Shown here piece by piece: positions 3,262 through 7,907 of a stretch of DNA of 64,000 nt. The stretch comes from Alphaproteobacteria bacterium (GTDB lineage Bacteria > Pseudomonadota > Alphaproteobacteria > UBA828). Where the stretch lies: positions 62,001 to 126,000 of the forward strand of contig JAJDUK010000055.1 in assembly GCA_022826665.1 (NCBI GenBank). The letters run 5' to 3'. Under the pieces are notes generated by a model that searched no databases, was not told the origin of the DNA, and was given only the letters and a program-made list of their open reading frames with translations. Position numbers and translations under genes: made by a program. Numbering within the stretch: position 1 is the stretch's first letter; each line of letters begins with the position of its first letter.

Positions 3262-3987
3262 ATGACCTCCGATACGAATAACGCGCCCGTGCTGCTCGTG
3301 ACCCACGTCACAGCCATCGACGTGGGCGCGATCCCGGACCTACTCGCCAACCTGGGGCGGTCGTCACGGGTGATGCGGGCGAACAAGGGCGAGCCGTTTC
3401 CGCAGGATGTCGAAGCGCTCGGCGGTGTGGTCAGCTTCGGCGGGCCGCAGAGCGCCAACGACGATCACATCGACTACGTGCGTGCGGAACTCGACTGGAT
3501 GCCGCGCGTGATGGCGGCGGGCGTGCCGCTGCTCGGCATCTGCCTCGGAGGCCAGATGGTGGCGCGCACCCTGGGCGCCACGGTGGGGCCCGACCCCGAC
3601 GGGCTCTACGAGTTCGGCTACTACCCGGTTGAGCCGGTGGACGGCGCGGCCGAAGACCTCGCTCTTGACGGGACGCTCGACGTGGCGCACCGACACGGCG
3701 AGGCGTTCACAATCCCCGCCGGCGCGCGCCGGTTGGCGCGGCGCGACGTGTTCGAGAACCAGGCGTTTCGCTACGGGGCGACAACCTGGGGCGTACAGTT
3801 CCATCCGGAGGTCAACGACGCGGTGCTGGGGCGTTGGCTCGACCGCGATCCACCGCCCGAAGACCTGGAGCGCAACGGCGCGCAGACGGTGGCGGTGCAG
3901 CGCGCCAAGCACGCGCGCTATCATCGGGCGATGCACGACTGGCTCGGGCGCTTCCTCGCGCTCTGGCTCGCAAGCGCGGAGCGCTGA
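3262..3987 (+). CDS. Class I glutamine amidotransferase (GMP synthase-like)
   Basis: A stand-alone class I glutamine amidotransferase domain, 241 aa. The catalytic triad is visible: nucleophile Cys94 in GICLGGQM, and His181 and Glu183 in VQFHPEV. Family members hydrolyse glutamine to ammonia for a partner synthase, or gamma-glutamyl compounds directly; the partner is unknown here. The ATG at 3262 lies 4 nt after the lolD stop. A longer upstream extension in this frame only overlaps lolD and is not conserved-looking. The gene ends 1 nt before ubiX, so it is probably part of the proS-lol-ubiX transcription unit. Confidence 0.88.
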   Translation: MTSDTNNAPVLLVTHVTAIDVGAIPDLLANLGRSSRVMRANKGEPFPQDVEALGGVVSFGGPQSANDDHIDYVRAELDWMPRVMAAGVPLLGICLGGQMVARTLGATVGPDPDGLYEFGYYPVEPVDGAAEDLALDGTLDVAHRHGEAFTIPAGARRLARRDVFENQAFRYGATTWGVQFHPEVNDAVLGRWLDRDPPPEDLERNGAQTVAVQRAKHARYHRAMHDWLGRFLALWLASAER

Positions 3988-3988
3988 C

Positions 3989-4582
3989 GTGGTGAGGAGT
4001 CTGATCGTCGGCGTGACCGGCGCGAGCGGCGCCGTCTACGGCGTGCGCCTGCTCGAGGTGCTGCAGGAGACACCTGTCGAAACCCACCTCGTCGTCAGCA
4101 AGTGGGGGCAGCGGACGCTGGAGCACGAGACCGGCCGGAGCCTTGGCGACCTGCGCGCGCTCGCGGACCATCACTACGGCGCAGGCGATATGGCGGCGCT
4201 AATGTCGTCGGGCTCGGCGGCCATCGACGGCATGGCGGTCGCGCCCTGCTCGGCGCGGAGCCTCGCCGCGATCGCCTGCGGGCTCAGCGAGAACCTGATT
4301 CACCGTGCCGCTGACGTCATGATCAAGGAGCGCCGGCCGCTCGTCCTCATGGTGCGCGAGACGCCGCTCAGCGCCATTCACCTGGAGAACATGCTCAAGC
4401 TGGCGCGGCTCGGCGTGACAATCCTGCCGCCCGTTCCGGCCTTCTACAACGAGCCGGGATCGATCGACGAGGTCGTCGATTACACCGTCGCAAGAGCGCT
4501 GGACCAGTTTGGGCTCAAGGTCGAACTGGGCGAGCGCTGGCGTGGCGACCTTGTGCGTCGCGCGGCATCCTCAGAGGGCTGA
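3989..4582 (+). CDS. ubiX: UbiX-type flavin prenyltransferase
   Basis: Makes prenylated FMN from FMN and dimethylallyl phosphate, the cofactor of UbiD-type decarboxylases used in ubiquinone synthesis or aromatic acid metabolism. The 197-aa product starts with the flavin-binding GVTGASGAVYG and carries the family hallmarks PCSARSLAAIA and MVRETPLSAIHLENM...PPVPAFY. The start is GTG at 3989 or the next codon, GTG at 3992, immediately after the upstream stop. No ubiD is present in the window. A 7-bp inverted repeat follows the stop. Confidence 0.95.
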   Translation: MVRSLIVGVTGASGAVYGVRLLEVLQETPVETHLVVSKWGQRTLEHETGRSLGDLRALADHHYGAGDMAALMSSGSAAIDGMAVAPCSARSLAAIACGLSENLIHRAADVMIKERRPLVLMVRETPLSAIHLENMLKLARLGVTILPPVPAFYNEPGSIDEVVDYTVARALDQFGLKVELGERWRGDLVRRAASSEG

Positions 4583-4615: not shown

Positions 4616-5284
4616 TCAGAACGTGTGGGCTGCCGCGATCGCGATGGCCCGCTCGATATCGGCAATGGCGCCGGCCATCTCGCGCCCGATCAGGTCCATC
4701 TTGCGGATCTGCTCGATGCGGGGCTCGACCCGGTCAATCTCCCGCTTCGAGTAGATCGTCCGCAGGATGTTGCAGCTGTCGACGAGGCAGATGAGGGCGA
4801 CATCACGCGGGTCGGGAATCTCATCCGAGAACAGCACGTCCGAGATTCGCTTTTTCGCCTCCTGCTCCACCTTGCCGTCAATGGTCGGGTAGCGGCGGGA
4901 GCGAAAGACCCAAAGGAATTTTTCCTCCTGACGCTGCAACACGCCGCGCTCCACCAGTTTTTCGAGCGCGGTCGCCCGAATCGTCGCGTCGTGACTGGCG
5001 GATGCTTCCTCGGCGGAGAGGGTCTCGATCCACGCCCTGCTGTCCGCCGTACTCTTTTCACCTGCGATCCGGGCCAGCGTGCGGTCCAGTAGGGGATCGC
5101 CCGTCGGGTTGGTATCGATGACCATCAGTTGCTCGGGGTCGGTATCGATCCGGTTCGCGAACGCCAGGTCCATCAGGACCGCGCCCGTCAGTGCACGGTT
5201 GAGCGTGTGCTCGCTCACTGGCAAGAAGGTGCCGTTCTCGTCATGGAGAAGGAGCACCATGATTTCTTCATAGAATGTCAGCAT
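4616..5284 (-). CDS. GPP34 (GOLPH3/Vps74-like) family protein
   Basis: Recognised as a GPP34-family protein (222 aa) by its N terminus, TFYEEIMVLLLHDENGTFLP, and the mostly helical body. Eukaryotic members (GOLPH3/Vps74) bind phosphatidylinositol-4-phosphate and sort Golgi enzymes. Bacterial members are known mainly from actinobacteria and a few other groups, with no settled function. There is no signal peptide or membrane segment, so it should be cytoplasmic or peripheral. It is the second gene of a minus-strand pair, 51 nt after the STAS gene, which suggests a shared function. Confidence 0.75.
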   Translation of the reverse strand: MLTFYEEIMVLLLHDENGTFLPVSEHTLNRALTGAVLMDLAFANRIDTDPEQLMVIDTNPTGDPLLDRTLARIAGEKSTADSRAWIETLSAEEASASHDATIRATALEKLVERGVLQRQEEKFLWVFRSRRYPTIDGKVEQEAKKRISDVLFSDEIPDPRDVALICLVDSCNILRTIYSKREIDRVEPRIEQIRKMDLIGREMAGAIADIERAIAIAAAHTF

Positions 5285-5335
5285 GGCACCGAATTCCGGG
5301 GTCAGGTCAGGGCTGGAGACTGCGAGGACGGCACC

Positions 5336-5671
5336 TCATGCAAGCGCCGCAATAGCCGCCTCACTTGTGTCGTGGCACTCGATGATCGCTAGAAATCCGC
5401 TCATTTCCATGACCGATCGACAATCGGGTTGCAGGGCGGCCACGGTCAGTTTCCCGCCGCCTTGCTGGCATTTCCTCGCGCTGACCAGCAATGCCCGCAG
5501 CCCCGCGCTGCTCACGTAACCCATCTCCGCGCAATCCAGTGCCACACGAACGTCTCCACGCTCCACAATCGCAGTAATCGTGGCCTCCAGATCCGGCGCA
5601 GTCACTCCGTCCAGGCGGCCGTTAAGGGAGACGACGACAGCTGCTCCCTCGGTCCTTTCAACAATGTCCAT
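5336..5671 (-). CDS. STAS-domain anti-anti-sigma-like protein
   Basis: A single STAS domain of 111 aa, the fold of anti-sigma factor antagonists such as SpoIIAA. The beta strand and phosphorylation loop are visible: DCAEMGYVSSAGLRALL, with Ser54/Ser55 at the usual phosphoacceptor position and Asp46 upstream. Such proteins bind a partner kinase or anti-sigma factor according to phosphorylation state; no kinase or sigma factor is encoded nearby. It is transcribed just before the GPP34 gene and probably with it. Confidence 0.88.
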   Translation of the reverse strand: MDIVERTEGAAVVVSLNGRLDGVTAPDLEATITAIVERGDVRVALDCAEMGYVSSAGLRALLVSARKCQQGGGKLTVAALQPDCRSVMEMSGFLAIIECHDTSEAAIAALA

Positions 5672-5756: not shown

Positions 5757-6989
5757 TCAGACGCCGCCGCCGTCACGCCAGAGTCGAGGCCAGTTGAGGC
5801 CGAGGAGGAGGGCAGCGACCAGGCCCTCCGCCGCAACGATGCGCACTGCATTGGCGCCGCCGAACAGCTCGCCCATGAGGCCGATATTGGTGAAGCCGAT
5901 CACGCCTGCGCCGATGGTGAGCGAGAGGATGCCGAGCAGGCGGCCACGCATCTCTGGCGGCGCGATCCCGTAAATCAAGACGGTCTGCATGGTGGAGAAG
6001 CCCGCCGCGCCAAGGCCCACGAAGAAGATCACGATCGCCATCGGCGCGACATCCGTCATCCAGCTCGCGACGAAGGCGAGCGCGGAGTAACTCGCCGTGC
6101 CGAAGAAGTAGAGCCGCCGGTACGCCCCCGGCCGCACGCCGAGGGCGGCAATCAAGAGTGCGCCGGCAAAGGCGCCGCCACCCTCCAGCGCGGCAAGGCC
6201 ACCGATAGCGGCAGCATTCAGGCCGAGGTTCTCAGTGCCGATGACCGGGATCATCGAGACGAAGGGGAAGCCCCAGATGTTGAAGATCACCGTGACATAG
6301 AGGATGCGGCGGACTTCGGGCTCCTGCGCCAGAAAGCGGAAACCCTCACGAAAATCGCCCAGCAGCCTCGCGGAGCGCTGCCCGACACTGGAAGCAGCGA
6401 AGGCCTTGGGCACGCCCGGCGTCAGGATCAGGCAAAGCGCATAGAGCGCTGCCGCCAGGCCAAAGGCGCCGCCGAGGCCCAGCCACTGATAGAGCAGCCC
6501 GCCGAACAACGGACCAATGAGCCGCATGGCGTTGCTGGTGGCGCTGTCGAGGCTCATGCCGGCGGCGATCCGCTCCGCCCCGGCTGCATCGCCGATCATC
6601 CGCCGCCTGACCGGCATGTCCGTGGTCCAGACGACACCGGAGAGGAAGGTCGCGAGCGCAATGTGCCAATAGGCGGCGATGCCCGAGAGCGCGAGGCTGA
6701 GAACGGCGAGAGAGACCAGTGCCGCGAGCCCCAACGAGCTATAGAGCAGAATGCGCGGGGCCAGGCGATCGGCGAAGGTGCCAACGATGGGGCCGAACAC
6801 GGCGAGTGGCAGCATCCGCAGGATGACGAGAAGCGCCACCAGCACCGGCGACCCCGTCGTCTCGACGGCGAAGACGCCAACCACCAGCAACTCCAGCCAG
6901 CGGGAGCCCATGCTGAGGAGGCCGATGAGCCAAAGGCGCAGATAGAGGCGGTCGCCCAGAAGCTCGGTCAGCCGGCGCGGCAGGATCAT
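5757..6989 (-). CDS. MFS transporter (EntS/MFS_3-like)
   Basis: A 410-aa major facilitator with about 10-12 hydrophobic segments and the loop-2 motif GPIVGTFADRL (around residues 65-75). The overall look is that of the MFS_3 group, which includes enterobactin exporter EntS and many uncharacterised exporters. The substrate cannot be deduced. It is transcribed away from the toxin-antitoxin pair and ends 85 nt upstream of the STAS gene start, so it could be co-transcribed with that pair. Confidence 0.85.
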   Translation of the reverse strand: MILPRRLTELLGDRLYLRLWLIGLLSMGSRWLELLVVGVFAVETTGSPVLVALLVILRMLPLAVFGPIVGTFADRLAPRILLYSSLGLAALVSLAVLSLALSGIAAYWHIALATFLSGVVWTTDMPVRRRMIGDAAGAERIAAGMSLDSATSNAMRLIGPLFGGLLYQWLGLGGAFGLAAALYALCLILTPGVPKAFAASSVGQRSARLLGDFREGFRFLAQEPEVRRILYVTVIFNIWGFPFVSMIPVIGTENLGLNAAAIGGLAALEGGGAFAGALLIAALGVRPGAYRRLYFFGTASYSALAFVASWMTDVAPMAIVIFFVGLGAAGFSTMQTVLIYGIAPPEMRGRLLGILSLTIGAGVIGFTNIGLMGELFGGANAVRIVAAEGLVAALLLGLNWPRLWRDGGGV

Positions 6990-7232: not shown

Positions 7233-7475
7233 ATGGCTAGCATTACGATCCGCAACCTCGACGATGGCGTGAAGACGCGGCTGCGAATTCGTGCGGCCGA
7301 GCACGGACGTTCGATGGAGGAAGAGGCGCGGGTTATCCTGCGGGATGCAGTCGGGGCGGAGGCCGGAGCGGACAACCTCGCCAGTGCCATCCGCGCGCGC
7401 TTCGCCCCGTTCGGCGGGGTGGAGCTTGATCTTCCGCCGCGCCAGCCCATTCGCGAGCCGCCCAGCTTCGATTGA
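7233..7475 (+). CDS. fitA: FitA-like ribbon-helix-helix antitoxin
   Basis: An 80-aa antitoxin with an N-terminal ribbon-helix-helix DNA-binding domain (MASITIRNLDD, then the helical segment RSMEEEARVIL) and a C-terminal tail rich in proline and acidic residues that would wrap the toxin. It neutralises the PIN toxin encoded 9 nt downstream and should repress the operon through the palindrome upstream. Its length and the ITIRNLDD start match the FitA/StbC group. Confidence 0.9.
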   Translation: MASITIRNLDDGVKTRLRIRAAEHGRSMEEEARVILRDAVGAEAGADNLASAIRARFAPFGGVELDLPPRQPIREPPSFD

Positions 7476-7484
7476 CGTCTGTCG

Positions 7485-7907
7485 ATGTTCGTGTTGGATA
7501 CCAATGTCGTCTCCGAATTGATGCGCGCGACACCCGAGCCTGCTGTCCAGGCGTGGGTGGCGGTGCGCTGGGTGGGGGACATGTATTTCTCGGCCGTCAG
7601 CGAAGCGGAGCTCCGTTACGGGGTCGCGATCCTGCCTAAAGGCCGACGACGGGACGCGCTCGCCGAAGCGGTCGATGGATTGGTACGAGAGGACTTCGCC
7701 GGTCGAGTACTGTCGTTCGACAGCCCGGCGGCGCAGGCCTACGCGGAGATTGCGGCGGCGCGCCGTGCTGCCGGACGACCGGTCTGCCAGGCCGATTGCC
7801 AGATTGCGGCGATCGCGCAGGCGCACGGCTTCGCGGTAGCCACCCGCAACGTGCGCGATTTCGCTGGTATGGGTATCGAGGTCGTCGACCCATGGGCGGG
7901 TGTGTGA
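7485..7907 (+). CDS. fitB: FitB/VapC-family PIN ribonuclease toxin
   Basis: A PIN-domain toxin of 140 aa. Acidic metal-binding residues are in place: Asp5 in FVLDTNVVSELM, Glu42 in SEAELRYG, Asp104 in ADCQIAA, and Asp125 near the C terminus. Such enzymes cleave RNA (often tRNA) when freed from the antitoxin. The domain appears complete, so the module may be functional. Confidence 0.92.
   Translation: MFVLDTNVVSELMRATPEPAVQAWVAVRWVGDMYFSAVSEAELRYGVAILPKGRRRDALAEAVDGLVREDFAGRVLSFDSPAAQAYAEIAAARRAAGRPVCQADCQIAAIAQAHGFAVATRNVRDFAGMGIEVVDPWAGV

Follow-up and report, generated by a model that had tools for sequence, protein, structure and literature searches.

A co-inherited gene pair of a single-domain STAS protein and a GOLPH3-like GPP34 protein in bacteria

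A gene for a single-domain STAS protein and a gene for GPP34, a protein of the GOLPH3/Vps74 family, form a co-inherited two-gene module that recurs in unrelated genomic neighbourhoods across several bacterial phyla. GOLPH3 is a much-studied Golgi oncoprotein, and to our knowledge hardly anything is known about what its bacterial relatives do. The pair described here is located in the window, by which we mean the whole stretch of 64,000 nucleotides of alphaproteobacterial DNA that was analysed. We give about even weight to, and against, the explanation that GPP34, with its GOLPH3 fold, acts as an adaptor at the membrane surface and that the STAS protein of this module controls it as a phospho-switch.

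Identification of the gene pair

Both genes are carried by the minus strand, and their positions and spacing are those that the original prediction had given. The main features of the region are the following.

3980-4582, UbiX-like flavoprotein gene, downstream of GPP34 and convergent with it
4616..5284 (-), GPP34 (GOLPH3/Vps74-like) protein, 222 aa, assigned by PF05719, a PDB profile match and an AlphaFold2 model
4892..4921 (-), KFLWVFRSRR (GPP34 residues 122-131), where GOLPH3 has its beta-hairpin; candidate loop for membrane contact
5285..5335 (-), gap of 51 nt from the STAS stop to the GPP34 start
5336..5671 (-), single-domain STAS protein of the anti-sigma-factor-antagonist type, 111 aa, assigned by PF01740 and TIGR00377
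5507..5509 (-), codon for Ser55 of the STAS protein, in the motif YVSSAGLR, which is conserved in paired STAS proteins
5757..6989 (-), MFS transporter (410 aa) that precedes STAS by 85 nt (PF07690, E=1.1e-27; PF05977, 6.6e-22)

The 222-aa protein, originally recognized as GPP34 from its sequence, matches profile positions 3-200 of 201 in the Pfam family PF05719 (E=9.4e-49, 166.6 bits versus a cut-off of 29.1), and it is the best-scoring of six GPP34 genes in its genome. The reading of its neighbour as a single-domain STAS protein is likewise borne out, with scores above the cut-offs of PF01740 (Pfam; E=6.9e-17, 61.6 versus 22.6 bits) and TIGR00377, the anti-sigma-factor-antagonist superfamily (72.4 versus 53.45 bits). 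The same protein falls below the cut-off of the SpoIIAA equivalog (TIGR02886, 54.5 versus 114.75 bits).

The MFS transporter gene was considered as a further part of the module and rejected. It adjoins the pair within the genus and not in other lineages, with a gene for a protein of 409-411 aa preceding STAS only in L058-L063 among the related loci, and it therefore probably lies outside the module. On the plus strand the window also carries two small adjacent ORFs (7233-7475 and 7485-7907) that by eye, from their motifs, resemble an antitoxin/PIN-toxin pair of the FitAB/VapBC kind.

Distribution of GPP34 and conservation of the pair

Within its genus GPP34 is universal, scoring above the family cut-off in 8 of 8 genomes, and it does so in none of 52 others from the family, order and class (60 genomes, the window's own included). 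A sample of 398 genomes from the phylum yielded nine above the cut-off, again including the window's own. More distant relatives were collected as a set of 79 loci, representing the best 80 of 114 relatives. These are labelled Alpha-, Gamma- and Deltaproteobacteria, Nitrospinota, Binatota, Rhodobacteraceae, Defluviicoccus, Stella and others, and most of their titles carry bin names of the form RHO, COS, IRC, CAR, APA and similar. Such prefixes appear to denote sponge metagenome projects, and most of the MAGs look sponge-derived; sponge species that match the prefixes are named in sections of PMC8163846. The window bacterium is probably a sponge symbiont as well. The GPP34 clade also includes the free-living Stella, and GPP34 genes occur on plasmids of Streptomyces, Pseudonocardia and Chroococcidiopsis. 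GPP34 sequences from different phyla are highly identical and sister genera lack the gene, a combination that points to spread by horizontal transfer.

The association with STAS is conserved both within the genus and far beyond it. Seven of the eight genus genomes carry an orthologous pair, and the exception (G002) is 67% complete. At the 79 loci from the best 80 of 114 relatives, 37 of 82 GPP34 genes have a STAS gene immediately upstream on the same strand, with eight of these pairs (L058-L063, L087, L088) belonging to the genus of the window. The two genes are separated by -7 to 52 nt in 36 of the pairs and by 139 nt in one. All STAS genes that an HMM detected at these loci (43 of 43) reside no more than two genes from GPP34, and none was located farther away among the 911 genes present; the HMM recovered 12 of 12 STAS genes in 12 loci of the genus, although very distant STAS proteins could escape these counts because it was made from relatives of the window STAS. 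The genes flanking the pair vary by lineage and include those for a thiolase, HlyD/TauD, an acyl-CoA dehydrogenase, CysRS, EamA and MFS proteins. Since both the family assignment and the adjacency were confirmed, neither of the two outcomes that the original prediction had named against itself, assignment of the 222-aa protein elsewhere and a lack of conserved adjacency, occurred.

The remaining 45 of 82 GPP34 genes at these loci (best 80 of 114 relatives) lack an upstream STAS gene, indicating that GPP34 does not always need STAS. No STAS gene was detected by the HMM in the 3.6-kb loci L137-L149, whose GPP34 genes fall outside the clade. Annotation likewise places no STAS gene beside GPP34 in the plasmid records, where the HMM finds one, in the Pseudonocardia record and 4.5 kb away. 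No gene fusing STAS to GPP34 was found.

When 98 GPP34 domains are placed in a tree, the 38 rows that belong to pairs require seven changes compared to 30.3 with shuffled labels (0 of 500 shuffles were as low), a clustering that is favoured by near-copies in the data set. For this tree the short rows L042 and L047 were dropped, identical sequences were merged, and labels other than that of the pair were assigned by protein length. Paired representatives from Immundisolibacterales and Stella occupy early branches, where the branch order is weakly supported. Distances among STAS proteins correlate with those among their GPP34 partners (r=0.87, 38 pairs), and the correlation persists among the 12 pairs that are less than 80% identical (r=0.76; 6 of 5000 permutations were as high).

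The window STAS protein shares about 50-67% identity with most of the STAS partners outside the genus, with lower values for Stella (39-40%) and L126 (34%), and is 29-39% identical to 12 other STAS proteins from two genus genomes. A second pair type in the same genus (L040, L049) carries a STAS protein with 33-37% identity to that of the window, a distance suggesting that this pair type may be a separate recruitment. Every paired STAS protein (38 of 38) carries the motif Y[IV][SG]S[AST]GL[RG]. Its serine, Ser55 in the window protein, is a putative phosphosite that we take to correspond to Ser58 of SpoIIAA, the phosphorylated serine of SpoIIAA/RsbV proteins. At two loci (L116:519-1025, L127:7441-7959), a gene for a protein of 168-172 aa is present directly upstream of GPP34 and beside a divergent STAS gene; the L116 protein matched no Pfam family.

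Structural features of GPP34

A profile built from 19 GPP34 sequences of the genus matches human GOLPH3 (3kn1, E=2.9e-17) and yeast Vps74 (E of about 1e-12) in the PDB. An AlphaFold2 model of the window protein, computed from an alignment of 41 sequences, has a mean pLDDT of 83.3 and superimposes on human GOLPH3 (9qpq_B) with a Z score of 17.6 and an rmsd of 3.0 over 192 residues. All five GOLPH3/Vps74 structures (9qpq, 3kn1, 2zih, 2zii, 4tu3) give Z scores of 15.0-17.6, compared to 4.7 for the next unrelated entry, and Foldseek matches the model to 3kn1 with E=6.7e-8.

In GOLPH3, the beta-hairpin serves oligomerisation and membrane contact, and an N-terminal arginine cluster binds coatomer. 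Residue 1 of the model matches residue 59 of GOLPH3, so that the coatomer-binding N-terminal part is without counterpart. The segment in the hairpin position is conserved as KFLWVFRxRR, with W125 present in 36, F127 in 39, R130 in 39 and R131 in all of 41 aligned relatives, and we infer that it could serve as a membrane-contact loop. Residues 121-141, which cover this place, have pLDDT values under 50 in the model.

The PI(4)P pocket of GOLPH3 is formed by W81, R90, R171 and R174, as described in passages of PMC4414131. By profile alignment, W81 corresponds to S24 and R90 to T33 in the window protein, a gap stands opposite R171, and R174 corresponds to R103. This last arginine is kept in 33 of 41 relatives. 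At positions 24 and 33 most relatives have neither W nor R; 17 of 41 carry R at position 24, and none does at position 33. Two of the three alignable pocket residues are thus replaced and R174 alone is kept, so PI4P binding of the GOLPH3 kind is not supported. The window protein is a GPP34 protein by both sequence and fold, without evidence for the lipid specificity of GOLPH3.

Fusions and other arrangements of GPP34

Pairing with STAS is one arrangement among several in the GPP34 clade, in which P450 fusions, membrane-domain fusions, and SpoIIE and PiT neighbours are also observed. GPP34 is N-terminal to a cytochrome P450 in proteins of about 665-696 aa (L034:9378-11417, L041, L046:1777-3774, L051, L056, L171-L178), 7 of 13 of which were identified with Pfam and the others with phmmer. 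Proteins of this architecture occur in several lineages, being encoded by five of the eight genus genomes and by 7 of 13 further genomes that were searched in full, a sample that favours paired members because it was hand-picked from the related loci. All 12 full-length proteins carry the haem-cysteine and ExxR motifs of the P450 family.

Another group of proteins, of about 391 aa, joins GPP34 to a membrane domain (L032:7553-10219, L033, L045, L083, L093, L097 and others). Four histidines of this domain are invariant (15 of 15 aligned sequences) and form two pairs, with a spacing of 14 residues within each pair, and in both cases checked with Pfam a multihaem cytochrome c gene follows that of the fusion. 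The histidine pattern suggests that the domain may bind a di-haem b centre. It matches no Pfam family at lax E-values, the best being Ni_hydr_CYTB at E=0.49, far under the cut-off, and an AlphaFold2 model of one such fusion has a mean pLDDT of 68.1, with about 38-59 per block in the membrane half. In three genomes, GPP34 shares 1-4 nt with the end of a gene for a PHO4 (PiT) phosphate transporter (L181:3495-5548, L182:2137-4154, L183:3429-5422).

Two further fusion candidates were rejected. L042, which has a SpoIIE gene downstream, retains the last third of the GPP34 domain behind an implausible reading frame and was for this reason not counted, while L047 joins 64 domain positions to an epimerase and looks broken or chimeric. 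In one genome (L052:7610-10235, identical to L112:7977-10602), GPP34 is followed by a gene for a xanthine/uracil-type permease, whose C-terminal stretch has a weak, RsbW-like resemblance to HATPase_c_2 under the cut-off (E=3.7e-4).

Kinase and phosphatase genes of the partner-switching families are adjacent to GPP34 or its STAS partner at a few loci. A paralogue clade of the genus, comprising four members from four genomes (L031:7295-11600, L036, L050, L055), has a response-regulator gene directly downstream of GPP34; a SpoIIE domain is seen in three of these four genes, while the contig ends within the fourth. Two genes upstream in L031 is an RsbW-like HATPase_c_2 gene, and another is present in both Stella genomes, divergent from STAS and 137 nt from its start. 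The L116 locus brings together GPP34, a divergent STAS gene, a SpoIIE gene and one that encodes a periplasmic binding protein. HATPase_c_2 genes are present in all eight genus genomes, and the window pair adjoins neither a kinase nor a phosphatase gene.

Proposed function and alternatives

The regulated, membrane-associated role suggested at the outset remains plausible, backed by the nearby partner-switch genes and by the fusions; PI4P binding as in GOLPH3 is not supported. In the mechanism that we propose, GPP34 would be a cytosolic, peripheral membrane adaptor and the output of a partner switch in this clade. When unphosphorylated on Ser55, the STAS protein would either bind GPP34 or free it from an RsbW-type kinase, and this interaction would be flipped when the RsbW-type kinase phosphorylates the STAS protein and when a SpoIIE-type phosphatase removes the phosphate. 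Once switched on, GPP34 would attach to the inner membrane through its aromatic and basic loop, where it could hold or tune a client membrane protein, much as eukaryotic GOLPH3 holds glycosyltransferases. The P450 fusion, the four-histidine membrane fusion and the PHO4 overlap fit an adaptor that works at membranes. Common to the arrangements is GPP34 together with either a membrane protein or haem enzyme, or a phospho-switch. The simplest reading is that GPP34 is an inner-membrane adaptor domain and that the window pair represents its free, switch-controlled form. Several points count against this explanation: no STAS-GPP34 fusion gene was found, 45 of 82 GPP34 genes are without an upstream STAS gene, the window pair has no kinase or phosphatase gene beside it, three of the four residues in the PI(4)P pocket are unmatched, and conservation of the phosphosite is expected of many STAS proteins.

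The main rival holds that the STAS protein acts on a sigma/anti-sigma pair encoded elsewhere, which it regulates, and that GPP34 is simply co-transcribed with it, for example in response to the same stress, and makes no direct contact. Such an arrangement would suit a protein that scores above the TIGR00377 cut-off in a genome with 13 HATPase_c_2 and 10 STAS matches. However, among those neighbours that are annotated (part of all), no sigma-factor gene is present beside the pair, the STAS partners form a subfamily that tracks GPP34 across phyla rather than resembling genome-resident STAS proteins, and STAS and GPP34 distances are correlated. On balance, we consider co-transcription without contact rather unlikely, yet a serious contender.

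Two other explanations seem far less probable. The sponge-derived appearance, judged by bin name, of most of the MAGs behind the loci (best 80 of 114 relatives) raises the idea that GPP34 is a eukaryote-like effector with which symbionts act on host trafficking, as might the ankyrin and WD40 proteins of sponge symbionts; enrichment of such symbionts in eukaryote-like repeat proteins is noted in parts of PMC8163846, where secretion systems are at the same time described as encoded in few lineages. This effector role is unlikely, and in our estimate very much so, given that the clade reaches free-living Stella and the family reaches plasmids, that P450 and membrane-domain fusions and the STAS pairing place GPP34 inside the bacterium, and that the GPP34 domain begins at the protein start, leaving no room for a signal peptide. 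Only marginally less improbable is a role as a PI4P-like lipid sensor that accepts a phosphoinositide or other anionic lipid in the GOLPH3 pocket, for which the common fold and the retained arginine (R103) speak, while the lack of matches to W81, R90 and R171 argues against it.

The adaptor interpretation can be extended to the clade as a whole. GPP34 may be a general, horizontally shared plug-in domain, mostly of sponge-symbiont-like lineages, by which enzymes and transporters are recruited to the inner membrane or tuned there, whether as a P450 fusion, as a di-haem-like fusion next to multihaem cytochrome c, in overlap with PiT genes, or as a STAS-switched free adaptor. We offer this generalization tentatively, as a possibility rather than an expectation.

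Comparison with known systems

With GOLPH3/Vps74, the window protein has in common the Pfam family PF05719, the fold and, at the level of sequence, a candidate hairpin region; it differs in lacking the coatomer-binding N-terminus and W81/R90, and in being paired with a STAS gene. The STAS protein resembles SpoIIAA/RsbV antagonists in its single domain and phosphosite serine. In contrast to these, it adjoins GPP34 instead of an anti-sigma/sigma pair and scores below the SpoIIAA equivalog cut-off. A precedent is the SypA/SypE system of Vibrio fischeri, in which, according to sections of PMC8256260, a STAS-only protein controlled by phosphorylation of Ser56 has a target that is no known sigma factor; no GPP34 is reported for it.

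Papers on the GPP34 family or domain found in our literature search are eukaryotic by title, and the sole bacterial study noticed concerns SCO4440 of Streptomyces coelicolor. According to portions of that study (PMC12402492), this GOLPH3-like protein is linked to peptidoglycan dimers and wall-deficient cells, and such proteins had not previously been described in prokaryotes. Like the window protein, SCO4440 is a bacterial GPP34 protein with a conserved synteny partner, but in the account given there the partner is the carboxypeptidase SCO4439 rather than a STAS protein (PMC12402492). The same search, outside which many subscription papers and preprints fall, returned no report of GPP34 together with a STAS domain or of a GPP34-P450 fusion, for which co-mentions concern insects or pesticides by title, and nothing on the present arrangement in connection with sponges. 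A STAS-switched GPP34 membrane adaptor thus seems undescribed.

Concluding remarks

A dedicated, conserved and putatively phospho-switching partner provides a concrete handle on the function of the GPP34 domain, and through the fusions to P450 and to a membrane domain the adaptor idea becomes open to direct biochemistry. If the STAS protein controls GPP34, partner switching extends to an output other than transcription. Should GPP34 prove to be a plug-in domain of the kind outlined above, partner switching would end in a membrane adaptor rather than in a sigma factor, and an old bacterial adaptor would have acquired its Golgi role, seen in GOLPH3, only late.
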